Shown piece by piece: positions 1-21,847 of a stretch of 21,847 nucleotides of DNA; position 1 is the stretch's first letter, and each line of letters begins with the position of its first letter. The notes beneath the pieces were generated by a model. It did not search any database. It was not told where the DNA came from and worked only from the letters and a program-made list of their open reading frames with translations. The stretch is from IMG/VR virus record IMGVR_UViG_3300042445_003235, positions 1 to 21,847 of that record. The stretch is one strand, 5' to 3'. This DNA is from a virus. The translations under genes and the position numbers were made by a program.

Positions 1-187
1 TATTGAAGGCAAACTCATTCGCGCAGCTCTGCTTGAAGAACTCCCCCTCGAGGAACATGCACGATCCCTTGCAGAGCTGAACGACCGGGCATGACATGCA
101 TTCCTCCCGGAAGGCAAAATGCGTCGCAGTGTCGAGCGCGATTGTCTCGAAATACACAACGTGGCTGACACTTTTTCTATCCGCCAT
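1..187 (-). CDS. SPASM-like cysteine-rich protein, partial (C-terminus outside window)
   Basis: Reading leftwards from ATG at 187, 62 residues are open to the window edge with no stop. Cysteines fall at residues 30, 33, 39, 43 and 55, giving CX2CX5CX3C-X11-C, within the motif CMSCPVVQLCKGSCMF. This spacing is the established second half of the SPASM domain, which holds auxiliary 4Fe-4S clusters in radical SAM peptide-modifying enzymes such as PqqE and the anaerobic sulfatase maturases. The ATG overlaps the end of the upstream gene by 11 bp and a GGGGGTGG stretch lies just before it, so the two are probably co-translated. Oddly, the usual order is radical SAM core first and SPASM last; here the motif sits near the N-terminus and neither the core CX3CX2C nor the first SPASM half is seen. 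It could be a separate SPASM subunit, a 5'-truncated enzyme, or another zinc or Fe-S protein. No function is proven. Confidence 0.6.
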   Translation of the reverse strand, partial: MADRKSVSHVVYFETIALDTATHFAFREECMSCPVVQLCKGSCMFLEGEFFKQSCANEFAFN

Positions 188-836
188 CCACCCCCAACCA
201 AATGGCAAACTGCCCACTCTCATCCGAAATCCTGCGCTCAATCCCCGCGGCTGCCTCCGCGGCGTTGATCCGCTCAAGGATCTTGGCTTGCTCGGAGTTG
301 AATAGGATGGCTTCATCGAGGCTCTCGGTCCGATGGTTCAGCCCGGTGCTGCTGTTGTGCCAGACGAAGGCGTCGTAACCGGCGAGGTCACCACTACTAG
401 AAACAACGACCTCCCAGACCTCGGCGCCGTGTTCGCCAAGACGCACCCCGTTGATCACGCGCGCGGCAGAATGGTCACGGCGCAACTCAGAAAAGACGCG
501 GCGCCGATGGTCCGCAGCGGCCTCGTAGGTTTCGTGGAGATGACCATCAGAAGTCCGGTAGAGGTTCTCTTCGATATGATCGCCGAAGTAGGTGATGGCC
601 TCGTGGCGGGTGCGTAGGTCGTGGCACCATTTCAGCCAACCGGCGGCGGCGTCGTGACCGGGTTCACCGCTTTCAGCCGCGGCGATCTCCAACTCGTCCA
701 TCATGCCGAGCATAAGCTCGTAACCCGTGGCATAATCGAACTCGGAGACACCGGCGGTCAGGAATACCCGTTCCAACACCGCATAGGCACCGTCACACAC
801 GCCCATGTCCTTGAAGAACTGCAAAGATGTTTTCAT
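177..836 (-). CDS. Hypothetical protein after the glycine-rich tail genes
   Basis: This is a 219-residue protein that I do not recognise. It starts at ATG 836, overlapping the stop of the glycine-rich gene in an ATGA arrangement, and ends in TAG at 177, inside the start of the SPASM-like gene. It is acidic and soluble, with no signal peptide or membrane segment. The N-terminal half is helical and rich in Glu, His and aromatic residues (motifs GYELMLGMMDELE and YFGDHIEENLYRTSDGHLHETY). The middle looks like a beta segment (AEVWEVVVSSSGDLAGYDAF), and a helical stretch (SLDEAILFNSEQAKILERI) precedes the C-terminus. Its tight coupling to both neighbours suggests a job with them, for example as a partner or substrate-presenting protein for the SPASM-like product or as a tail-tip accessory. 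That is inference from position only. Confidence 0.75.
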   Translation of the reverse strand: MKTSLQFFKDMGVCDGAYAVLERVFLTAGVSEFDYATGYELMLGMMDELEIAAAESGEPGHDAAAGWLKWCHDLRTRHEAITYFGDHIEENLYRTSDGHLHETYEAAADHRRRVFSELRRDHSAARVINGVRLGEHGAEVWEVVVSSSGDLAGYDAFVWHNSSTGLNHRTESLDEAILFNSEQAKILERINAAEAAAGIERRISDESGQFAIWLGVDGG

Positions 837-1318
837 CCAATGGCTCCATATGCGCGGGCTGATCCCCCAATCCAGGTGATCGCGTGCCCGTTAGCTGCGA
901 TGGCTTTGCCTCCGGCTGCACCAGGATTGCCACCAGCCTGCGCCGTAAAGTCGGCTAGGGAGCGTGTTGCGGCCCCGCCAGCAGCCCCCCAGCCGCCCCC
1001 ACCGCCCGAAAGCGGTTTGATCGGTGCCAGCGTACCATCGTTGGCGTTGCGGGCGACGTAGACGACAAAGCTGTCCCCCTGACCGGCTTCACCTGGCGCA
1101 CCGCCGGGGGCTGCGAAGAGCGTGTCGATTACCCAGCCGAAGGGTGGCATTGGGCGGCGGTCGGGAGATCCAGCCGTAACTGAAGCCGTGATATTGGTGC
1201 GCGGGGTAGAGAAGATCAACTCGCCCACGCCGCCCACAGTACCGGGGAGGATGCGCCCCCCACCCTGCCCCGAGATGCCCGCAATCTTAAAAGGACCACT
1301 GCTGCCGCCGCTTCCCAT
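833..1318 (-). CDS. Glycine-rich tail tip protein (second of two)
   Basis: The product is 161 residues and glycine-rich throughout, with runs such as SGGGGGWGAAGG at about 104-115 and GNPGAAGG at about 130-137. The start at 1318 is fixed by an AAGGGAG ribosome site 6 bases upstream; an in-frame extension to 1423 would overlap the previous gene and has no such site. The C-terminal segment (NGHAITWIGGSARAYGAIG) resembles the ending common in phage glycine-rich tail fibre tips, where a 'TW..G....GA' motif follows an N-G step. Polyglycine-rich lattices are known from receptor-binding adhesins such as T-even gp38, so a receptor-contacting role is plausible. Its stop overlaps the next gene's ATG by 4 bp. 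It may act with the longer glycine-rich protein encoded just upstream. Confidence 0.75.
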   Translation of the reverse strand: MGSGGSSGPFKIAGISGQGGGRILPGTVGGVGELIFSTPRTNITASVTAGSPDRRPMPPFGWVIDTLFAAPGGAPGEAGQGDSFVVYVARNANDGTLAPIKPLSGGGGGWGAAGGAATRSLADFTAQAGGNPGAAGGKAIAANGHAITWIGGSARAYGAIG

Positions 1319-1341: not shown

Positions 1342-2121
1342 TTAGATACCACTGCCCTGGATCGCGCCCGCGCCACTTGCCCCGCCCGCACCGCCATGGG
1401 TGGCGATCGTTTGACCCGCCCAAGTGTTCGAAGCCGTGTTAACGGATCCCGGCTGGCCAATGGCCCCACCTTCGCCAAAGCCGCCCAAAACGACGCTGCT
1501 CGTTGTGCCGAAGGGCATAGGGCCACCGCGCCCCCCGCCTGCGCCACCCCCACCCGGGCAATGAATGCCGGTAATAAAGATCGCAAGGGGGGCCCCAGTC
1601 ATTCCGGCACCCCCACCGCCGCCGCCGCCAATATAACCGATGGTATTGTCGATAATGATCGGCCCCCGCAGCGCGATCGCCGGCCCGCCGGCAGTGGGGC
1701 CGACATAGGTGGTGCGATCTGCCTGCATGTATCCGCCATCCCCGCCCTTGCCCATGATGAAGCCACGGTTGACGAGCGTCAGGCCTCCGGGGAAGGCCCC
1801 GCCCATGTCGAGCGCCGGGATCGAAGTGTTGTCAGACCAGATGTAGATGCCGGAGGCGACCGTCACCTCGACCCTGCTGCTCCCATCCCAGCCCACGCCG
1901 AGGAGATAGCTGCGCAGGTTCAGATGCAGCTGATTGGCCGTGATGGTGTGGCTGAACTGCGCCGCCTTACCACGCAAACTGCTCTTGCCGATGGGACCCG
2001 AGGTAATCCCCGCAAGCCCGCGCACCGCGGCACTGCCGAGCGAGATCGTGGTTGATGCCGCGCGGCCCAGTTCAAGATTGACCTGCGACAGGGAGAGCGG
2101 TCCGGTTAGAGGAAGCGGCAT
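1342..2121 (-). CDS. Glycine-rich tail fibre / receptor-binding protein (first of two)
   Basis: This 259-residue protein has two parts. The N-terminus (residues about 4-52, including LSQVNLELGR and IGKSSLRGKA) follows a pattern seen at the start of many phage tail and fibre proteins, in which a 'GPISLSQVN.ELG' segment is followed by 'S...LRGK'. Residues about 55-100 are a beta-type segment. The remainder holds glycine clusters at 124-130 (GKGGDGG), 165-172 (eight residues, seven of them in an unbroken Gly run), 190-200 and 243-252, separated by short hydrophobic strands such as IALRGPIIIDNTIGYI. This layout fits a polyglycine-helix sandwich adhesin tip. It starts 3 bases after the stop of the upstream short gene. 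Function as adhesin is inferred. Confidence 0.75.
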   Translation of the reverse strand: MPLPLTGPLSLSQVNLELGRAASTTISLGSAAVRGLAGITSGPIGKSSLRGKAAQFSHTITANQLHLNLRSYLLGVGWDGSSRVEVTVASGIYIWSDNTSIPALDMGGAFPGGLTLVNRGFIMGKGGDGGYMQADRTTYVGPTAGGPAIALRGPIIIDNTIGYIGGGGGGGAGMTGAPLAIFITGIHCPGGGGAGGGRGGPMPFGTTSSVVLGGFGEGGAIGQPGSVNTASNTWAGQTIATHGGAGGASGAGAIQGSGI

Positions 2122-2124
2122 GGA

Positions 2125-2415
2125 TCACGGGCTCCCGAAGGCGGTCACATCGCCCAAGACCACCAGATTGCCCGAACCGTCGATCGTCATGATGTCGGTG
2201 CCGTTGTAGCGGAAAGTCAGGCTCGCGCCGTCCGCCTGCGCGGTGAAGGCGCCCCAGCGCGCGCCGACCTCGATGATCTCCTCACTGCCGTCGGAGCGCT
2301 TGAGGAAGAGCTTTCCGTCCCGAGTGTTGACGGCCAGCTCACCCAGATCGAGCTGGGCGGTGGTCGGCACCTTCGTGGCGATTGCAGAGCGTTTCAGGAG
2401 GATGGTGCTGGGCAT
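2125..2415 (-). CDS. Short fibre head-domain protein
   Basis: The product has 96 residues. The N-terminus (STILLKRSAIATKVPTTAQL, then DLGELAVNTRDGKLFLKR) is a module widely found at the start of phage fibre proteins, where an 'I.LKRS' strand is followed by 'L.GELA.N..DGKLF.K'. It resembles the N-terminus of the large fibre protein encoded just upstream (IQLKRR ... LRSGEVAHNEVDDTLYVGK), so the two are probably paralogous in that part. The C-terminal half is a beta-rich tail (ASLTFRYNGTDIMTIDGSGNLVVLGDVTAF), typical of short fibre or collar pieces. A likely role is as an adaptor or attachment piece for the glycine-rich proteins that follow. The 113 bases between this gene and the upstream fibre hold no gene that I can support. 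Confidence 0.7.
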   Translation of the reverse strand: MPSTILLKRSAIATKVPTTAQLDLGELAVNTRDGKLFLKRSDGSEEIIEVGARWGAFTAQADGASLTFRYNGTDIMTIDGSGNLVVLGDVTAFGSP

Positions 2416-2528
2416 CGGAGTTCCCGGGTTCTGAAGGGAATGGCGAGGATGACGGGCGGGCCCGCAGGACCCGACGCAGATCGTCCCGTCGAGATGAGCT
2501 CAAAGGCACAAGGTCGACTGGGAGCCGA

Positions 2529-4169
2529 TCAGAAGAGCCCGCCGTCCAGCGCTATGCCGTCGACCGTACCGCCGGTGATCGCAACGGCCGATGAGGATTG
2601 TGTGGCCAGTGTGCCAAGTCCCAGCGTGCTGCGCGCCGTTGGCGCATCGGCATCATCGAGTAAAGTGCGGGCAAAAGCCGTTAGGGGCGCAAGGGCCGCA
2701 GCCGAAGCGCCGGTGTAATAGGTCAGCCGATCCGCGGCAGGTGTCAAATTTCCGACGGTTGCGAGGGCCGCGGTGAGGCTGAGTGTCGGGTTTCCGGCGA
2801 CGGCATCACCGTTCGTGACCGAAAGACCCGCGCCGCTCACCGCAATCGACCGCGCCGCGACCGTCGCGGCCGCCGTCCGGGCCACAAGACCGTTGGTCGC
2901 AAGGTTGTGCAACGCAAGCGCCTGACCGCTCAGCGCAACCGTATCGGCCGCCACGGCAATCCCGGCGCCTGCGCCCACATCCAGCGTGTTGCCAGACCGG
3001 GTGAGCCCGGCCCCTGCGAGGATCTGACCCGCCCCGGTGAACTGGACGAAGGTGACCGCCGTCGTGCCGAGCGTCCCGCCCGGATCGACCGTGCTGAGAT
3101 AGCCGAGATCGGCATTCACCGCGCCGCTCTCGACAAAGACATAGGCCGAGACCAACTCGCCCCAGACATCGGCATCTGCCGCGCGACCCCAGGCCCCCGC
3201 CGCAACCACATAGATCCCGTTCTGGCTCGCCGTCGTCTGATCCTTCACCAGAACACGGTCCCCCGCGACCAGGGCCACGCCATCGATAGTCATCGGTCCG
3301 GAAAGCGCCGCAATCGTGGCCGTACTCGCCGCGCGCACCGACTGCTTGGGCTCAAGCCCCTGTACCGTGAGATCAACATAGGCCTTGGTCACCGCATCCT
3401 GCGCGCCTTGCGGATCGCCAAGGCCCGTCAGGCGATAACCGCCAAGGCCAAGATCGGCCGCGGGCGCCGCCAACTGATCCAGCCGTGTGGCCCGCACGAA
3501 GGCGGTCGTTGCGATCTGGGTCGTGTTTGTCCCAACCGCAGCCGTCGGTGCGGTGGGGGTTCCGCTAAAAGCCGGCGATGCCAGTGGCGCGCGCGACGTG
3601 TCCGTGGGGTGGACGTGATCGGCGCGGGCAAATCGGGGGGCCGTGCCTACCGCGGCTGTGCCATCCATTATAGGCGCCGTCGCCGCCGCCTGGCCCAGGA
3701 CAAAGGCGGTCGTCGCGAGCTGCGTGCTGTTCGTATCCGCCGCAGCCGTCGTGGCCGTGGGCGTGCCAGTGAGCGCAGGCGAGGCGAGCCCGACCTTGGC
3801 ATCAAGCGCCGCCTGAAGCCCAGTGACCTCCCCAATTGCATGGGCATGGCTGAGTGCGGCCCGCCCGGCAATTCCGGCATCAAGCTGGGATTTGCGCACG
3901 AGGTCGGTGGCGCCCGTGGCATCCTCGGTGGATTTCGGAGGGGTGGTGAAGGTTTTCGGGCCGACAATGCTCTGCGTGCCCGCTAGATCGACAAAGGCAC
4001 CCTTGCCTGCGAGCGGGATCACGGCCGTGGCATTGCCCGCCCCGTCATCGCCCTTGCCCACGTAAAGCGTGTCATCGACCTCATTATGGGCGACCTCGCC
4101 TGATCTCAAAGCCGCTGGGGCCCCGGCGTTGCCAGCGGGGCGACGCTTGAGCTGGATCGTATTGGCCAT
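2529..4169 (-). CDS. Tail fibre protein with internal repeats
   Basis: This 546-residue protein is Ala/Gly/Thr-rich and has fibre architecture. Residues 1-55 are an attachment-type module (IQLKRR ... GEVAHNEVDDTLYVGKGDDG). Residues 107-125 carry the hinge motif SHAHAIGEVTGLQAALDAK, common in phage fibres. Residues 128-157 and 196-225 are two copies of a 30-residue repeat of the type 'LASPALTGTPTA ... TQLATTAFV', separated by a spacer with ADHVHPTDTSRAP. From about 230 a module reads GYRLTGLGDPQGAQDAVTKAYVD, followed by a beta-rich region with VLVKDQTTASQNGIYVV at about 307-322. The C-terminus ends in DGGLF, an ending shared by two other tail proteins here. Its start overlaps the preceding gene's stop in TGATG. 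It most likely forms the long side or tip fibre. Confidence 0.8.
   Translation of the reverse strand: MANTIQLKRRPAGNAGAPAALRSGEVAHNEVDDTLYVGKGDDGAGNATAVIPLAGKGAFVDLAGTQSIVGPKTFTTPPKSTEDATGATDLVRKSQLDAGIAGRAALSHAHAIGEVTGLQAALDAKVGLASPALTGTPTATTAAADTNSTQLATTAFVLGQAAATAPIMDGTAAVGTAPRFARADHVHPTDTSRAPLASPAFSGTPTAPTAAVGTNTTQIATTAFVRATRLDQLAAPAADLGLGGYRLTGLGDPQGAQDAVTKAYVDLTVQGLEPKQSVRAASTATIAALSGPMTIDGVALVAGDRVLVKDQTTASQNGIYVVAAGAWGRAADADVWGELVSAYVFVESGAVNADLGYLSTVDPGGTLGTTAVTFVQFTGAGQILAGAGLTRSGNTLDVGAGAGIAVAADTVALSGQALALHNLATNGLVARTAAATVAARSIAVSGAGLSVTNGDAVAGNPTLSLTAALATVGNLTPAADRLTYYTGASAAALAPLTAFARTLLDDADAPTARSTLGLGTLATQSSSAVAITGGTVDGIALDGGLF
3495..3788 (-). repeat. Two 90-bp repeat units inside the tail fibre gene
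   Basis: Positions 3699-3788 and 3495-3584 encode the two 30-residue copies (LASPALTGTPTA... and LASPAFSGTPTA...), offset by 68 codons. The protein copies differ at about seven positions, so the DNA repeat is degenerate. This repeat type is common in phage fibres and is a likely site of recombination between fibre genes. Confidence 0.75.
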
Positions 4170-11434: not shown

Positions 11435-13941
11435 GCAAGACGTCCCCGGCGCATGGCATTGCCCACGGCCGCGATGGCGATCCGTTCGAACTCAGGCTGC
11501 GCGTTGCGCAGGACCGTGGCCAGTTGTTCGGCGACCCCGATCTGCGCCCCGCGCGCATCGACGTTGAGATGGGCGGCGACGGGCGGCATACCTCCCGCTC
11601 CGCGACCAAGCTCGGCGCGCGACAGGACGCGCTCGCCCCTCTGCAGAATGGCCGGAACCTCATCCGGCCGGAGCCCGGCCCAGCCGCCTGCATGCATCCG
11701 CGGGGCACCAGTAAAGATCGCCGCAGGAACGCTGCGCATCGGAGCGCTTTGGCCTACCATGCCGCCTGTGTGCCAGATGCTGGCGTTCACCATCGGGTTC
11801 GCCCGGACGGCGGCGCCTCCGCCAAAGAGCCCGCCCCCAAAGGCACCTGACAGAGCTGAGGCCAGTGGGCCCAGCACCGCATTCTTGAAGGCCAGCGTCG
11901 CAAGGTCGGCAAGAATCGAAGAGACCAGTGATTTGAAGTCGAACTTGCCGGTGGTGACAAACTGGCGGAAGGCACTTTCTGCCGAGGAGAAGGCGGAGGT
12001 CAGCGTCTCGCCGAGGCCCTTGCCCCAATCCATCGCGCCTTTGGCATAGTCGGCCAAAGCCTTCGTGACCTGCGCCCAGCCGGTCAAGGCCTCCTCTGCC
12101 GCCTTCTTGGCAGCGCCACCCGCCCCGCCTGCCGCTTGGCCTGCCGCGTCAAACCCGTCTGACACGGCGCCTGCGGCTTGCGCAGCCGCAGTCAGCGCGT
12201 CTTCACCCTCTGTCCCTGCGCCGGTGATCGCTGCCTTGAGGGTTTCCCAAGCCGTCATCGGGCGGGAGGCAGCCACTGACAGCATACCCGCCGCCTCGGC
12301 ATATCCCGTAGCGCGGCCACGTGCAGCCTCAGCCATGCCCCCGAGGAGATCCGGCGCCTCAATGTAGGTCTTGCCCATCGCGGCACGGAACGCATCTGCG
12401 GCGGCCGTACCTGCGGCTGAAGCTGCGCCTTCGAAGGGATTGGCAATCCCGCCAAGATCCACCGCCTCCAAGGTACCAATCTTCAGACCACCTTCACCCG
12501 TCGCCCAATCAGGCAGGAGGGCCAGCGCCGCGTTCAGACCTTCGATGAAGCTGTTGATGCGCGTAACCACCGCATTCAACATCGATTCGACGCCACCGAT
12601 GAGCCCATTCGCCGCCTGATAGGCAAAATCCCCGATCGCCTGCGGCAGCGCGCCCCAGATCGCCTTCACCCCGTCAAAAGCGCCCTGGAACGTCCCGACA
12701 GCAGAATTGCCCCAGGCTACCACAGCCGACAGCGCCGATTGCAGCCCGTCGTAAATCCCCGCCTGTGCGTTGGCCCAGCCGGCCTCCACGCGCGACCACG
12801 CGGCCGTTGCCGCCAGCGCAATGCGGTCCCAGGCCTCTGCCGCGACATCCCGCAAGAGGCCGAAGGCTGCACCAACGCCGCCGACTTTGCCCACCAGTTG
12901 CGTGAACTGATAGACCAGTTCGCCCGCGCCCACGATCAGCGCGCCGATCCCAGTGCGGATCAATGCACCACGCAGAAAGACAAGCGCCGTGGCGAGGCCC
13001 TTCACGGAGAGGGCCGCAGCAGCCAGCCCAGCAACCCAGCGTCCGGCCATGACCGTGACAAAGGTTACGGCATAGGCCGTAAGCCTCCCAAGATTGTCGA
13101 GCACAGTGGTGAAGGCCCGATTGATGGGCCCACCAACCTCCGCAAGCCGCAAAAATCCCTCGGCCAGCGCCGTCACCGCAGGCGCCAAAGCCGCGCCGAT
13201 CTGATTTCGCATGCCCTCAAAGACCTGACCCACACCGATCAGGGCCAACTCTGCCCGTCGCAAGGCGCTGAGCGCCCTTTGGTCAAGCACCACCCCAAGC
13301 CCCGCCGCCCGCTCGCCCAACCGCGCCATCTCCGCGCCACCGTCTTGCAGCAAGGGAATGAGCCGCGTGGCATCCGAGGCCATCGCCTCGAGATAGAAGG
13401 TCATCTCTTGGCTGTTGACGCCCGCCTTCTCCAAGCTTGAGACATAAAGCTGCAGCGCCTCAGGTCCCGAGAGCCGTGCAAACTCTTCAGCCGTCACCCC
13501 CACCTTCGGCGCGATCTTCTCAAAAAAGTCCGCCATCGGGCCGCCGCCCGTCTGCAGGAAGTCCCCCACCCGGTCGTTCACGTCCTTCAGAATATCGGCG
13601 AGTTTTTCTTGTTCGATCCCGACCGTCATCGAGGCAGCCGTCCAGCGCTGGAATGCCTCCGGCGCAGCATTGGCGATCTGGGCAAACTGCCTAATCTCGG
13701 CGGCACTTTGTGCCGTGGATCGCACAACGAGGCCCAACGACGCCGTCGCTGCCGCGGCCGCAGCCCCAAGGGCAAGCCCGGCCTTGCGCGCAAAGCTCGC
13801 AAGACGGGCATTGGCCAGCTCCATCTCGCGTGAGAGACGTCCAAAGCCTTTGGATCCGGCCTCGCCCACGCCTTCCAGCTCGGCACGAACTTGCCGGCCG
13901 CCCACCGCCGCAAGCCTGACAGAGATACGCTTTTCGGCCAT
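11431..13941 (-). CDS. Tape measure protein (lambda H-like)
   Basis: This 836-residue protein is Ala-rich and mostly helical, with an N-terminal helical region (about 20-160) and hydrophobic segments at about 54-73, 290-320 and 325-345. The central part has many amphipathic helices. The C-terminus carries the conserved tape-measure ending: FGGGLFGGGAA, a WHTGGMVG step, and LRPDEVPAILQRGERVLSR before a basic end. It sets tail length and is ejected with DNA; the membrane-like segments may help DNA entry. The start at 13941 lies 27 bases after the G-T stop, with an AGGAC stretch upstream. Confidence 0.93.
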   Translation of the reverse strand: MAEKRISVRLAAVGGRQVRAELEGVGEAGSKGFGRLSREMELANARLASFARKAGLALGAAAAAATASLGLVVRSTAQSAAEIRQFAQIANAAPEAFQRWTAASMTVGIEQEKLADILKDVNDRVGDFLQTGGGPMADFFEKIAPKVGVTAEEFARLSGPEALQLYVSSLEKAGVNSQEMTFYLEAMASDATRLIPLLQDGGAEMARLGERAAGLGVVLDQRALSALRRAELALIGVGQVFEGMRNQIGAALAPAVTALAEGFLRLAEVGGPINRAFTTVLDNLGRLTAYAVTFVTVMAGRWVAGLAAAALSVKGLATALVFLRGALIRTGIGALIVGAGELVYQFTQLVGKVGGVGAAFGLLRDVAAEAWDRIALAATAAWSRVEAGWANAQAGIYDGLQSALSAVVAWGNSAVGTFQGAFDGVKAIWGALPQAIGDFAYQAANGLIGGVESMLNAVVTRINSFIEGLNAALALLPDWATGEGGLKIGTLEAVDLGGIANPFEGAASAAGTAAADAFRAAMGKTYIEAPDLLGGMAEAARGRATGYAEAAGMLSVAASRPMTAWETLKAAITGAGTEGEDALTAAAQAAGAVSDGFDAAGQAAGGAGGAAKKAAEEALTGWAQVTKALADYAKGAMDWGKGLGETLTSAFSSAESAFRQFVTTGKFDFKSLVSSILADLATLAFKNAVLGPLASALSGAFGGGLFGGGAAVRANPMVNASIWHTGGMVGQSAPMRSVPAAIFTGAPRMHAGGWAGLRPDEVPAILQRGERVLSRAELGRGAGGMPPVAAHLNVDARGAQIGVAEQLATVLRNAQPEFERIAIAAVGNAMRRGRLA

Positions 13942-13968
13942 TGCGAGGACAGGTCCTGTTGATGAAGG

Positions 13969-14633
13969 TCAGTCGTGGTTTGCGGCGATCTGCGCATTCA
14001 CGCAGCGCACCATCGCCGCCTCGATGGCGGGCAAGAGTTCTGCGATGGCAGGCGCCGGAACACCGAGGGCGGCACCAAGGACAAAGGCCGCGCCCATATC
14101 CCAGCCGATCACCGCGCCGGGAACGATGCGAAGTTGACCTCCCATGCGGCTGACCAGGTCCCAGACCAGCCAACCTTCAACCGTGAGCGGCTGGTTCAGT
14201 CGTGCAGGGCAGTCTGGGCAGTTGGATCCACATGCTGCGCAGTAGCTGTCGCCCCCGCCGAACTCCCACTCAGCACGGGCGATGAGGCGTTTTTTTCCGC
14301 GTCCAGCAGCAGGCCCTTCGCGACATAGACCGTCTGGAACGCCTCGAAGATGGGCCAGATGTCGAGCAGCGCGTCGATGGCCTCGGGGCTGACCACCAAG
14401 GGCGCGCCCTCGGCATCTCCGACTCCTTCCCAGTCAAGGATCGCCGTGCGCGCCAGTGCCTTGGCCATCGCCAGTGCCGCCTCCTCCGTTCTCGCCTCTT
14501 TCGGCAGGTCGGCAATCGCTGGATCGCTGCGTGCCGCGACCATCAGCGCCGTGGTGAGCGGGCGGAGCTTCACGCGCACGCCGGGGACGAGGTCACACCA
14601 AAAGGGTGTGTTGGTCAGATCAAGGGTTAGCAT
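13969..14633 (-). CDS. Tail assembly chaperone G-T fusion by -1 frameshift
   Basis: Codons 1-115 are shared with G; a -1 shift at A AAA AAC (14295-14289) opens 106 further codons from CGC 14289 to TGA 13969, giving 221 residues. The T part begins RLIARAEWEFGGGDSYCAAC, carries the cluster CAACGSNCPDC (CxxCxxxCxxC), and continues with WLVWDLVSRMGGQLRIVPG and a helical end. The T frame is free of stops, ends just before the tape measure gene, and has no good separate start near its beginning. Known family behaviour: lambda-type tail chaperones make G and a minor G-T product that loads tape measure and recruits tail tube subunits. The frameshift itself is inferred from sequence, not shown. Confidence 0.75.
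14196..14633 (-). CDS. Tail assembly chaperone G (unshifted product)
   Basis: This is a 145-residue product of normal translation. ATG 14633 is chosen because a GAGAGA stretch lies 9 bases upstream and the protein then begins MLTLDLTNTPFWCDL; longer in-frame starts run into the tail tube gene. The body is helical (LTTALMVAARSDPAIADL, EEAALAMAKALARTAI, SPEAIDALLDIWPIFEAF), as expected for a lambda G-like chaperone that coats the tape measure protein. After the slippery site the G frame adds 30 low-complexity residues (SSPVLSGSSAGATATAQ...), consistent with a disposable tail produced only when no frameshift occurs. Confidence 0.82.
   Translation of the reverse strand: MLTLDLTNTPFWCDLVPGVRVKLRPLTTALMVAARSDPAIADLPKEARTEEAALAMAKALARTAILDWEGVGDAEGAPLVVSPEAIDALLDIWPIFEAFQTVYVAKGLLLDAEKNASSPVLSGSSAGATATAQHVDPTAQTALHD
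14249..14295 (-). promoter_or_regulatory. Programmed -1 frameshift signal: slippery heptamer plus stem
   Basis: On the minus strand the G frame reads GCG GAA AAA AAC GCC, which contains the heptamer A AAA AAC in X XXY YYZ phase at 14295-14289. Six bases later TCGCCC (14282-14277) can pair with GGGCGA (14254-14249) around a 22-base loop. Both spacer and phase fit known -1 frameshift sites, and lambda uses the equivalent G GGA AAG in the same gene pair. Confidence 0.75.
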
Positions 14634-15665: not shown

Positions 15666-15713
15666 GCAGCCAACGCACTTTTGGTACAGACACGACCCGA
15701 ACGCAGACCTCGA

Positions 15714-16088
15714 ATGACCACTCTCACACCAAGCACTGCAAAACCTTCCGTCCTCGCACCGGATCTCGAAGTCACGGGCGATATCACCACCAAAGGCCCA
15801 TTACTTGTTCAAGCGCGTATTGTCGGCAACATTACCGGCGAGATCGTGACGATTGAGCACTGGGCCAATGTCAAGGGCGACATCACGGCCAAGCAGGCAA
15901 CGATTGAAGGCGTTGTCGTTGGTGCAGTCATCGCGGAGGATGTCCGCGTTGCCCATTCCGGCCAAATCAACGGCTCAGTTCATTACACCAAATTGACCGT
16001 AGAAGCTGGCGCGATGATCGAGGGCCATCTGAGAATGATAACCCCGCCCCCGGAACCCGCTCAGCCAAGTGGATCGGCCAGCGAGTAG
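15714..16088 (+). CDS. Bactofilin-family protein (polymer-forming beta-helix)
   Basis: This 124-residue protein is on the plus strand inside the tail operon. Residues about 13-105 are a run of short beta-helix turns with regular Gly and hydrophobic steps (GDITTKGPLLVQARIVGNI, VKGDITAKQATIEG, GQINGSVHYTKLTVEAGA), which is the bactofilin (DUF583) pattern. The ends are short and Pro/Ser/Thr-rich, as in known bactofilins. Bactofilins polymerise without nucleotide and scaffold cell-shape and envelope proteins. ATG 15714 gives the family's usual short lead; a TTG at 15681 is in frame but adds unlikely residues. Its last 28 bases overlap, tail to tail, the end of the minus-strand tail terminator gene. 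It looks like a moron; a role in reshaping or protecting the lysogen is inference. Confidence 0.87.
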   Translation: MTTLTPSTAKPSVLAPDLEVTGDITTKGPLLVQARIVGNITGEIVTIEHWANVKGDITAKQATIEGVVVGAVIAEDVRVAHSGQINGSVHYTKLTVEAGAMIEGHLRMITPPPEPAQPSGSASE

Positions 16089-16521: not shown

Positions 16522-16863
16522 TTAATCGTACTTCGACGTACCGGGTCCAAGCCCCATAAGACGTCGAGGCAAATCACTTCGGCTATGCAGCACGTCGATG
16601 ATGACGATCTGATCAGGGTACTCGACGAAGACGACGAAGTGCTGGCCTACACGCGTGAAGCGCAAGTCCTCTGGCAAATCAGGGTCGATCAGCTTGCGAC
16701 AATCCTGCGAGATGGCAACACCGGCCGCAATCGCAGCACAGCGAGCAATCAGATCCTCTTCATAGGCTGCGGCTTGCAAAGGCCCAAATGTCTCTGCAGT
16801 CCAGAGCGCAATCTCTTCGAGGGAGGCGCCGGCCTGGCGCGTAAGACGCCAAGGTTTTGGCAT
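16522..16863 (-). CDS. parE: ParE/RelE-family toxin
   Basis: The product is 113 residues. The opening (PWRLTRQAGASLEEIALWTAETFG) is the ParE pattern of a first strand, then a helix ending 'W....FG'. A second helix (AAAYEEDLIARCAAIA) is followed by the toxin core LPEDLRFTRVGQHFVVFVEYPDQIVIIDVLHSRSDL, with the conserved R and 'V..VLH.R.D.'. Family role: ParE toxins usually poison gyrase, RelE relatives cleave mRNA; the sequence alone favours ParE. ATG 16863 shares its base with the antitoxin stop (TAATG). About 15 extra residues follow the family's usual end. It forms a complex with ParD. Confidence 0.88.
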   Translation of the reverse strand: MPKPWRLTRQAGASLEEIALWTAETFGPLQAAAYEEDLIARCAAIAAGVAISQDCRKLIDPDLPEDLRFTRVGQHFVVFVEYPDQIVIIDVLHSRSDLPRRLMGLGPGTSKYD

Positions 16864-17120
16864 TAGTTCTTGGCGCGCGCGGATGCAAATGCGCGCCGAA
16901 TGGCCTCTTCGCCACTGCCCTGTGCCAATTCACCGTGGCGCGCCTGCGAGAGACCGGACGATAGCCGGTCGCGAAGTTCGCCAAGCTCAGCCTCTTCACG
17001 CTCAAGAAGACGCAAGCCCGCGCGCAAAGCTTCAGAAGCGTTTTGATATCGCCCTGAAGCCACCAGCTGATCGATCAGCACGGACTGGCTGTCGGTCAAC
17101 ACAACGTTTCGAGTACCCAT
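16863..17120 (-). CDS. parD: ParD-family antitoxin
   Basis: The product has 85 residues. ATG 17120 is set by a strong GGAGG site 5 bases upstream; a longer in-frame start would remove the promoter. Residues 1-45 form a ribbon-helix-helix DNA-binding domain (VVLTDSQSVLIDQLVASG, then RYQNASEALRAGLRLLE), and the rest is the helical toxin-binding tail, with EEAIRRAFASARAKN at the end. Antitoxins of this kind repress their own promoter; the palindrome over the -10 box upstream fits this. The operon sits between the DUF6441-type gene and the tail terminator gene. Confidence 0.9.
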   Translation of the reverse strand: MGTRNVVLTDSQSVLIDQLVASGRYQNASEALRAGLRLLEREEAELGELRDRLSSGLSQARHGELAQGSGEEAIRRAFASARAKN

Positions 17121-17141
17121 AGCTGCCTCCTGCCCCTGCAT

Positions 17142-17174
17142 TGGCAATATATGCCATAAGACTTGAGCTGTCGA
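17142..17174 (-). promoter_or_regulatory. parDE promoter with ParD operator
   Basis: On the minus strand TCGACA (17174-17169) and TATATT (17151-17146) lie 17 bases apart, each 5 of 6 matches to the sigma-70 boxes. The palindrome TGGCATATATTGCCA (17156-17142) covers the -10 box. It begins 22 bases upstream of the parD start, so ParD binding here would block transcription. Confidence 0.72.
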
Positions 17175-17193
17175 CCCACCTTGCCATAGCCCT

Positions 17194-17823
17194 TCACCAT
17201 TGACCTTCCACCCAGCTTGCCACAATCGCTCCCGGCACACGTCCCAACTCCGCCTCCGCGGCGGCGGCCAAATTGAGCCGCTTCTCCAGCCGCACCTGCG
17301 GCACGAGCAAAAAGATTGGTGCGGTCAGGAGGCCCCGACCGGTCTTCGAGCGCGACGCCACAGCCCGGCCTTTGGTGTTGAGCCGCCCCTCAGCCACCAA
17401 GAGGCTCGGCCCCTGGTGTCGATAGATAAACCGCAACCTCAAGCCAGTACGGCGCTCCCATTCGCCGGGGGAGATCCGGCCGCCGCGGGCGGATTTACCA
17501 GCCGCGGGCGTGGGGATCGCGAGCCAAAAGCCGTTCTTCGAGCGGATCATTGGCCCTGTGTTGTGCGCCCCAAGAATGACCGGGGCCTTCGACCAGACCA
17601 GAGCCGCCGCGTTCAGACTGGGTTTGCCCTTTGGATATTGCGCAGACCGAATGCTGCGCGCCAACCTGGTGCCAAGCCCCGCGCCCGTAATCTGGCCGCG
17701 CCAGGCTGACTTCAGGCGCGTGCTGGCTTCGCGGATCGCCGTCGACACCGCACGCTCGCCGGTGGCAATCTCTTCCCGCATGAGCGCCACAATGTCAGGA
17801 TCAATGTTGAGGCTCAGATGCAT
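17194..17823 (-). CDS. DUF6441-type phage structural protein (lambda Z position)
   Basis: This protein is 209 residues from ATG 17823; a GTG at 17832 forms GTGA with the previous stop and is a possible alternative start. The N-terminus (MREEIATGERAVSTAIREASTRLKSAWRGQI) is an amphipathic helix, followed by GAGLGTRLARSIRSAQYPKG. This opening, with 'GLG.RLA...R...YPKG', is typical of DUF6441 phage proteins found between head-tail joining and tail terminator genes. The C-terminal half is basic with strands (LRLRFIYRHQGPSLLVAEG) and a short ending helix. Its position equals lambda Z or the HK97 gp10-like neck protein, so a head-tail connection role is likely. Confidence 0.78.
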   Translation of the reverse strand: MHLSLNIDPDIVALMREEIATGERAVSTAIREASTRLKSAWRGQITGAGLGTRLARSIRSAQYPKGKPSLNAAALVWSKAPVILGAHNTGPMIRSKNGFWLAIPTPAAGKSARGGRISPGEWERRTGLRLRFIYRHQGPSLLVAEGRLNTKGRAVASRSKTGRGLLTAPIFLLVPQVRLEKRLNLAAAAEAELGRVPGAIVASWVEGQW

Positions 17824-20678: not shown

Positions 20679-21847
20679 TTATTCCTCTTCGGGGTTGTTT
20701 GCCCGGCTAAAGTCGGACGGTCCGACATTAGAATTCGTTTCCGGCACCTGGGTTGGCGTCGCCCGTGCACCCTGCGTCTCGCCCGGGCTGGCGCGATAAG
20801 TCAGCCCCAGATCCGATGCGCGCTTGGCATCCGCAGCGTTCTCACGATCGACCTCTTCGATATCGTAGCCGGTACCCTCGACCACCTTGCGCCGCGAGGT
20901 AATGCCTGCCCCCATTGCGAGCACCTGCGCTTGGATGTCTTTGAGCGGATCAACCCAGTCCCACCTTGGCGGGATCCATTGCACTGCGCGCGCGTCAGCG
21001 GGGTCTGTATTGAGCGCGCCCGACAGCACCGCCGTCTCCAGCCAGCGCCGCCAAATGGGACGGCACAGCTGATGCGCCATGACACCATGCTGCAATTGGC
21101 CAATCCGCCGCCGGAACTCGACGAGTTCGGCACGCAAGGACGAGTAGTTCGCCTGCCGGACATCGCCCGTGACGAGATGATAAGGCAAACCCAGCGAGGC
21201 CGAGACCGCTAAGAGTGTCCGGTACTGGAACGCCTCATAGCCACCACCAACATCAGCGGGGCTTGAGAACTTCACATCCTCACCCGGCAGCAGCACCTGC
21301 ATGGTGCCGGGCTCGAGGCTCGCGATGGCGGCCCCGTCGAGATCAGCAGCGCCCTCTCCCATCATCGGGTCCTCGGGGGCGGTCTTCGTGATGAAGCCCG
21401 CAAACATCGCCGCGGTCTTCTTCCGATCAAGTTCCGCATCGTCGTACTGGTCGAGCAAGAACAGCCGCACCATGGCCGGTGCCACATGCGGCAGGCCGCG
21501 GATCTGGCCTGCATCAATCGGCCGATAGATGTGCAGCACCTCCTCAGCCGACACGCGCACCGTCTCAGGCACCGCCACCCGCTGATCCGTGCTGTCGCCC
21601 GGGTGACGGCGGCGGAAGTGATAAGCCACCCGCCGGCCGATCAGATCGAACTCAACCCCACAGCGGATGGGGTTGCCGTTCGGGTCCATCTCCGTTTTCT
21701 CAAAGGGCAGCATCTCGGACTGGAGAAGCTGCAATTGCAGTGGCACTAGTAGCCCGTCCTCAGTGCGACGCGGGCGCAGGCGCACAAAACATTCACCGGC
21801 CACAAACATCTCGCGTGCGACCATAGCCTGCAGACCGTAGAAATCGG
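20679..21847 (-). CDS. Portal protein (lambda B family), N-terminus outside window
   Basis: The last 389 or so residues are visible and the frame stays open to the window edge (DFYGLQAMVAREMFVAGECFVRL at the edge). The segment VAREMFVAGECFVRL, then HIYRPIDAGQIRGLPHVAPAM, and the region LPYHLVTGDVRQANYSSLRAEL are hallmarks of lambda-type portal proteins. RRWLETAVLSG and IQAQVLAMGAGITSRRKVV also fit. The C-terminus is acidic and unstructured (ANNPEEE). Twelve copies form the DNA gate of the capsid. It ends 4 bases before the protease start. It probably begins upstream, next to a terminase module not in view. Confidence 0.93.
   Translation of the reverse strand, partial: DFYGLQAMVAREMFVAGECFVRLRPRRTEDGLLVPLQLQLLQSEMLPFEKTEMDPNGNPIRCGVEFDLIGRRVAYHFRRRHPGDSTDQRVAVPETVRVSAEEVLHIYRPIDAGQIRGLPHVAPAMVRLFLLDQYDDAELDRKKTAAMFAGFITKTAPEDPMMGEGAADLDGAAIASLEPGTMQVLLPGEDVKFSSPADVGGGYEAFQYRTLLAVSASLGLPYHLVTGDVRQANYSSLRAELVEFRRRIGQLQHGVMAHQLCRPIWRRWLETAVLSGALNTDPADARAVQWIPPRWDWVDPLKDIQAQVLAMGAGITSRRKVVEGTGYDIEEVDRENAADAKRASDLGLTYRASPGETQGARATPTQVPETNSNVGPSDFSRANNPEEE

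Follow-up and report, generated by a model that had tools for sequence, protein, structure and literature searches.

The gene cut by the left edge of the window (the whole stretch of DNA analysed, a linear IMG/VR record of 21,847 bases) is, we are confident, a 3' remnant: a fibre cassette was exchanged here, and only the end of a phage radical SAM/SPASM gene stayed behind. Where relatives, about a hundred phages and prophages, have the gene intact, there is almost certainly a genetic tie between the enzyme and a fibre-like protein that carries an (Asn/Ala/Asp-Cys)n repeat at its C-terminus; the enzyme probably modifies that repeat. It is likely that the remnant, the genetic tie and the modification all hold together. 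More broadly, we lean towards the view that widespread tailed phages carry their own radical SAM cassette, which would covalently modify Cys-Xaa repeats at fibre tips and be exchanged or lost as a module with the fibre.

The left edge of the window

The phage late genes lie on the minus strand. An apparent portal gene stands at the right edge, the tape measure (PF09718) follows, and the fibres close the series at the left edge, where we distinguish the following features.

2..172, minus strand: apparent 3' remnant of a radical SAM/SPASM gene, SPASM second half (5 of 7 Cys), running off the contig end (tblastn of L002 residues 328-384 onto reverse-complement positions 21676-21846; HMM; phrog_1802)
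2..187, minus strand: open frame of 62 aa with an ATG at 187, its first 5 codons not derived from the radical SAM gene
172..177, no strand: apparent junction of the exchanged fibre cassette's end with the radical SAM remnant (219-aa gene ends at 177; radical SAM homology from about 172)
177..836, minus strand: 219-aa protein, last gene of the alternative fibre cassette (homologue of 68% identity at the same place in L046, likewise against a truncated radical SAM gene)
836..1318, minus strand: 161-aa Gly-rich protein of the alternative cassette (80% identity in L046)
1342..2121, minus strand: 259-aa Gly-rich fibre-like protein of the alternative cassette (83% identity in L046)
2125..4169, minus strand: two fibre genes, 96 and 546 aa, of a fibre family (cluster 0) that also precedes the intact radical SAM cassette in relatives

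Three further loci in the late region were recorded: a ParE/ParD toxin-antitoxin pair (PF05016, PF03693) between head and tail genes (16522-17240, minus strand) and, on the opposite strand to the late genes, a bactofilin (PF04519, 9.7e-21; 15681-16088, plus strand) and a UPF0149/YecA-like protein with a SEC-C motif (PF03695 6e-33, PF02810; 4793-5557, plus strand).

The minus-strand frame 187..2 reads MADRKSVSHVVYFETIALDTATHFAFREECMSCPVVQLCKGSCMFLEGEFFKQSCANEFAFN over its 62 residues and stays open up to the contig end. The SPASM domain (PF13186 / TIGR04085) has seven Cys in the pattern CX9-15GX4C-gap-CX2CX5CX3C-gap-C. An initial annotation had noticed C-x2-C-x5-C-x3-C followed by a Cys 12 residues on, at the end of the phage fibre module, and had read it as the second half of a SPASM domain from a peptide-type radical SAM enzyme; both the spacing and the position are as it described. 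Among the six frames of the window, the same spacing comes up a second time by chance, in a frame (13694-14176) that corresponds to no known gene, and on sequence grounds the pattern alone is weak evidence; it is homology that gives the fragment its significance. An HMM of phage radical SAM proteins aligned with the fragment at profile positions 341-399 (96.8 bits, E=2.9e-29), and the fragment (P0001) is a member of phrog_1802, the 'radical SAM domain-containing protein' family (E=1.5e-7, profile 338-393), which the intact relative L002 matched with E=2.5e-53. These two results bear out the proposed origin. Relatives of the fragment are encoded on at least 80 viral contigs. In a Pfam search of the window, the fragment, which holds the last five of the seven SPASM Cys, was too short to match PF13186, and PF04055, the core fold and the CX3CX2C core motif, which the annotation had proposed to look for here or in the next gene, were absent from the fragment and from the rest of the window. 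Weak 2OG matches at 95-265 on the plus strand were discarded as antisense of the SPASM remnant.

The ATG at 187, previously taken as the start, overlaps the stop region of the 219-aa gene (177..836). The frame is homologous to the intact enzyme only from residue 328 of the latter, at about window base 172 and 5 nt past that stop; roughly 25-30 further codons would be expected to the left of the contig edge. Of what intact relatives have (discussed later), the window lacks the radical SAM core and the first SPASM half as well as the genes for the Cys-repeat protein, for the companion protein and for oxygenase-like proteins; in their stead it has the Gly-rich 259-aa and 161-aa genes and the 219-aa gene. 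The 219-aa protein matched no Pfam or PHROG family. The isolate prophage L046 carries homologues of all three alternative-cassette genes (68-83% protein identity) and then a radical SAM remnant from residue 351; its record holds no intact enzyme copy and no radical SAM core. With a different breakpoint (residue 351 as opposed to 328), L046 is, by sequence comparison, truncated independently of the window.

The gene had been variously proposed to be (i) a split enzyme, (ii) a stand-alone SPASM subunit or (iii) a truncated remnant. With the core and the first SPASM half missing, the third proposal is the one upheld. The first is not supported: intact relatives consist of a single chain, and neither the rest of the window nor the L046 record holds a radical SAM core. 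That the fragment works by itself as a SPASM protein would fit the open frame, the close match to intact enzymes and the retention of a similar piece in L046, but the retained length differs between the two truncated lineages (starting at residue 328 or 351 of the intact enzyme) and neither record has a core partner; further, 127 bp are identical to an intact gene, that of contig L026, and the junction may be too young for an open frame to indicate selection. We consider this second proposal extremely improbable.

Another metagenome yielded L001, a second record of this virus, which shares 8,170 identical bp with the window and is truncated in the same way. Its last 127 bp are those identical to the intact-gene contig L026, and L001 and L026 end at the same base; this shared end resembles an assembler break, and contigs may stop here for that reason. 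One might accordingly suspect that the junction is an assembly chimera at a contig end, given that the window ends about 170 bp beyond it and that the common end of L001 and L026 after their identical stretch is like an assembler k-mer break. The junction, however, lies upstream of the shared stretch and is present in L001 as well, and isolate prophage L046 shows this arrangement too, at a breakpoint of its own. We therefore disfavour a chimera as very unlikely.

We propose instead that a fibre-cassette exchange ran into the last phage gene and left the truncated remnant, which would account for the truncation, the replaced genes, and the L046 and L001 observations. Among Rhodobacterales relatives, DNA similarity collapses shortly past the SPASM domain, and the enzyme gene is for that reason probably at the very end of the phage. 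At the Rhodobacterales loci (e.g., L002, L202-L213), the last codons of the enzyme diverge between phages right after '..HLTGMVVV', suggesting that a phage end or attachment region may lie inside the 3' end of the gene. More decayed or truncated enzyme copies were seen in host genomes at L211, L214, L221 and L229, at all of which the Cys-repeat gene is absent nearby; in L214, a gene resembling the UPF0149/YecA-like gene of the window adjoins the truncated enzyme.

The intact enzyme and its companion genes

In relatives, the full gene is kept in this place, with the normal core-then-SPASM order. These intact relatives encode a single-chain radical SAM/SPASM enzyme of 405-495 aa in a late cassette behind the tail fibres. 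Across 45 diverse sequences, the CX3CX2C core and all seven SPASM Cys (C299, C318, C352, C355, C361, C365 and C377) are conserved, core Cys74 nearly so. Intact relatives matched PF04055 with 37.5 bits (cut-off 29.5) and the TIGR04085 SPASM model with 31.5 bits (cut-off 27), the latter being passed by L002 and by the second enzyme of L061. The closest solved folds to an AlphaFold2 model of the intact enzyme (pLDDT 93) were the peptide maturases CteB (thioether), ChlB, anSME and TigE, with CteB the best; the fold matches also span quite different chemistries (formylglycine formation, epimerisation and others).

Scores against the NCBIfam equivalog models (PapB, SCIFF maturase, anSME, HxsB) were far below the cut-offs, so that the reaction is not nameable by family, and the intact enzyme looks, from its sequence, like a family of its own. 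Three specific identities were rejected: anaerobic sulfatase maturase, the annotation of the Achromobacter phage JWF protein (TIGR03942, 38.3 bits for L002 against a curated cut-off of 349); PapB ranthipeptide maturase (NF047865, 65-75 bits against a curated cut-off of 340); and HxsB of the His-Xaa-Ser system (TIGR03978, 44-55 bits against 370), the repeat here being Asn/Ala/Asp-Cys. The best sub-cut-off family matches include the Cys-directed enzymes PapB, QhpD and CcpM, which is weak evidence.

Most cassettes also encode a companion protein of 240-330 aa (43/59 viral and 45/61 genome loci). Its AlphaFold2 model (pLDDT 92) had whole-length matches only to uncharacterised phage proteins, its C-terminal domain being Ig/Big-1-like. 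We rejected a known-fold identity, as no characterised fold matched over the whole length; by its model, the companion is a new fold. Genes for 2OG-Fe(II) oxygenase-like proteins or for a second radical SAM protein are frequent in the cassettes. The count of 2OG genes (98 of 146 loci) is approximate, being drawn from permissive iterative profiles and a set that includes loci picked by their repeat. Against PF13759 (gathering cut-off 27), a gene of L053 scored 70.7 bits, two genes of L002 scored 25.1 and 17.9, and one of L037 scored 26.2.

The Cys-Xaa repeat and its proposed modification

A gene near the intact enzyme, usually upstream of it, encodes a fibre-like protein bearing at its C-terminus an (Asn/Ala/Asp-Cys)n repeat of n=3-10, in which the Xaa residue is mainly Asn (256), Ala (97) or Asp (45), with few others. 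The repeat stands at the C-terminus or immediately before a Hint-like domain. A 198-aa fibre-like protein carries NCNCNCACACQCACDC and other proteins carry CSYCSYCSYCTYCNCNCDC; JWF-like phages have NCNCNCACTC or NCNCDCNCNCSC just ahead of the Hint-like domain. In Rhodobacterales phages, NCNCACRC occurs in a protein of about 100 aa that matched no fibre family of its own. Synonymous codons are mixed in 93 of the 98 repeat arrays, which shows selection at the protein level and rules out a DNA microsatellite as the source of the repeat. A repeat-tail query returned no matches among annotated phages.

The association was counted from both sides. Among loci chosen by the enzyme alone, with at least 4 kb upstream, the repeat was found upstream on the same strand in 57/59 viral and 51/61 genome loci and downstream in 1/59 and 1/61; repeats in antisense frames anywhere in these loci numbered 7 (viral) and 10 (genome). 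Conversely, of 30 loci chosen by a DNA pattern for NCNCNCxC alone, in which the repeat was C-terminal and at least 3.5 kb of downstream sequence was available, 27 had the enzyme downstream; in the other three, the match was weaker, lay at 7 kb or was fragmentary. Other, non-terminal occurrences of the repeat had the enzyme in 0 of 11 cases. Leaving aside the chromosomal clade (see below), the enzyme lacked a repeat within 4.5 kb at genome loci L244, L271, L281 and L211 and viral loci L038 and L048, most of which are decayed or not clearly phage. In L048, a divergent virus, a Lys-Cys repeat (KCKCQCKCKCKC..., more than 25 units; 970-1692) lies 5.2 kb upstream of the enzyme. Enzyme core and repeat are jointly absent in the truncated lineages.

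We postulate that the enzyme modifies the repeat using its SAM-bound [4Fe-4S] cluster and two SPASM auxiliary clusters, and regard this as probable. Such a reaction would be of RiPP type and act on a virion protein, the fibre taking the part of the 'leader' and the Cys-Xaa repeat that of the 'core'; in the relatives, by the two-way association, a putative modifying enzyme is encoded beside a candidate repeat-bearing substrate, an arrangement that the window does not have. A second radical SAM enzyme may act too in some phages, as may 2OG-Fe(II) oxygenase-like enzymes, and in some the Hint domain may trim the precursor. The window phage would have lost this maturation system by fibre-cassette exchange.

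Without any enzyme, solvent-exposed Cys repeats could also take up metal or become linked by disulfides. The repeat might thus be a metal-binding needle tip like the His-x-His iron sites of T4 gp37, the enzyme being unrelated or building a metal site non-covalently; for HxH needles, we know of no need for a dedicated enzyme. HxH iron sites are established in tail fibres (PMC11705849), and Cys residues that alternate along a trimeric fibre would point to its inside, like the His of the needles. Enzyme and repeat, however, are linked both ways and are absent together in the truncated lineages, and we judge a needle without covalent modification unlikely.

As to the chemistry of the proposed covalent modification, thioethers from Cys sulfur to a neighbouring Asn, Asp or Ala carbon are tentatively the most likely, since the Cys density, the fold neighbours and the tolerance of PapB all fit. 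The radical SAM thioether maturase PapB works on Cys-Xn-Asp at n=0-6 (PMC9413430), a range that gives near-neighbour links a chemical precedent. Judging only from the position of the repeat, thioethers might make a stiff, redox-stable fibre tip for receptor contact. Nearly as possible is another radical SAM chemistry on the repeat, such as epimerisation of alternate residues, C-C cross-links, or changes to Asn/Asp preparing for 2OG oxygenases, and we hold it to be plausible though not preferred. The strict alternation of residue and Cys, the 2OG-Fe(II) oxygenase-like genes of many cassettes and the several chemistries among the fold neighbours are in its favour, but Cys at every second position best fits sulfur chemistry and, more weakly, the top sub-cut-off matches include the Cys-directed PapB, QhpD and CcpM.

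Distribution and comparison with known systems

The enzyme was found in prophages and MAG contigs of Rhodobacterales, Rhizobiales, Rhodospirillales and Burkholderiales, and in some Verrucomicrobia, Planctomycetes and Bacteroidetes MAGs, where the binning of phage contigs does not prove the host. A close full-length relative occurs in only two sequenced isolate phages, Achromobacter phages JWF and 2-1; the earlier remark that this is not a standard siphophage late gene is thus apt for sequenced isolates, but not for uncultivated viruses and prophages, in which the gene is widespread. A search for carriage on plasmids gave no match. The cultured Thalassobacter stenotrophicus CECT 5294 has at least three intact copies in separate loci and a partial one at a contig end (L209, L210, L213, L267).

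Chromosomal homologues in Variovorax, Ramlibacter and a gammaproteobacterial MAG (L219, L220, L222, L223, L225, L236; L282-L285), the nearest relatives outside phages, form one monophyletic clade (support 1.0) without the Cys repeat. In the members viewed closely, the enzyme is mostly beside YcaO-nitroreductase and ATP-grasp-like genes, which are typical RiPP machinery. L225 has a 766-aa YcaO-nitroreductase (PF02624, 1.3e-41) and an ATP-grasp-like gene, with similar-looking genes in L219, L223 and L236, while L222 has a carboxylesterase in their place. The cluster looks like an undescribed RiPP-type cluster, and its neighbours are an independent pointer to peptide maturation. In two Variovorax strains, a giant YD/RHS-repeat gene adjoins the enzyme.

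In the open-access literature, outside which most subscription papers lie, we found no paper describing such a fibre maturation system, nor did we find a published report of modification on these fibre repeats. If our proposal is correct, host recognition in many marine, freshwater and soil bacteria uses fibre tips beyond the 20 encoded residues, which would affect structure prediction of fibre tips, phage engineering and receptor identification; a radical SAM family acting on short repeats at the end of folded proteins would also be useful for peptide cross-linking. With Achromobacter phages JWF and 2-1 isolated and Rhodobacterales hosts in culture, the proposal is testable now.

In kind, the system appears to be peptide maturation by a radical SAM/SPASM enzyme, with a fibre-like protein of phages as its target; the window carries only a remnant of it. 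PHROG 1802 and PJWF_00030 of Achromobacter phage JWF ('anaerobic sulfatase-maturating enzyme') are the same protein family. JWF has, in order, a fibre in which NCNCDCNCNCSC precedes a Hint domain, then a 240-aa gene and the enzyme, whereas the window copy is without its core; neither annotation names a target or a tested function, and the sulfatase label is unsupported for the L002 relative. The CteB/SCIFF, PapB ranthipeptide and QhpD maturases share the core, the two-cluster SPASM and a Cys-rich target encoded nearby, but the phage enzyme matches them well below equivalog cut-offs, and their targets are small peptides or an enzyme subunit rather than a fibre-like C-terminus with Cys at every second residue. 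The HxsA/HxsB/HxsC 'His-Xaa-Ser' system likewise has a repeat-tailed target and radical SAM enzymes, which are paired in some of these phages too; its repeat, however, is His-Xaa-Ser and not Asn/Ala-Cys, its enzyme is of another family (HxsB 43.8 bits against a cut-off of 370), and we know of no tie between it and phage fibres. The HxH tips of T4 gp37 resemble the repeats in placing alternating ligand-type residues in a phage tail fibre (PMC11705849), but there the residue is His, whereas the phages described here have Cys, in a repeat at the extreme C-terminus that comes with a dedicated radical SAM enzyme.
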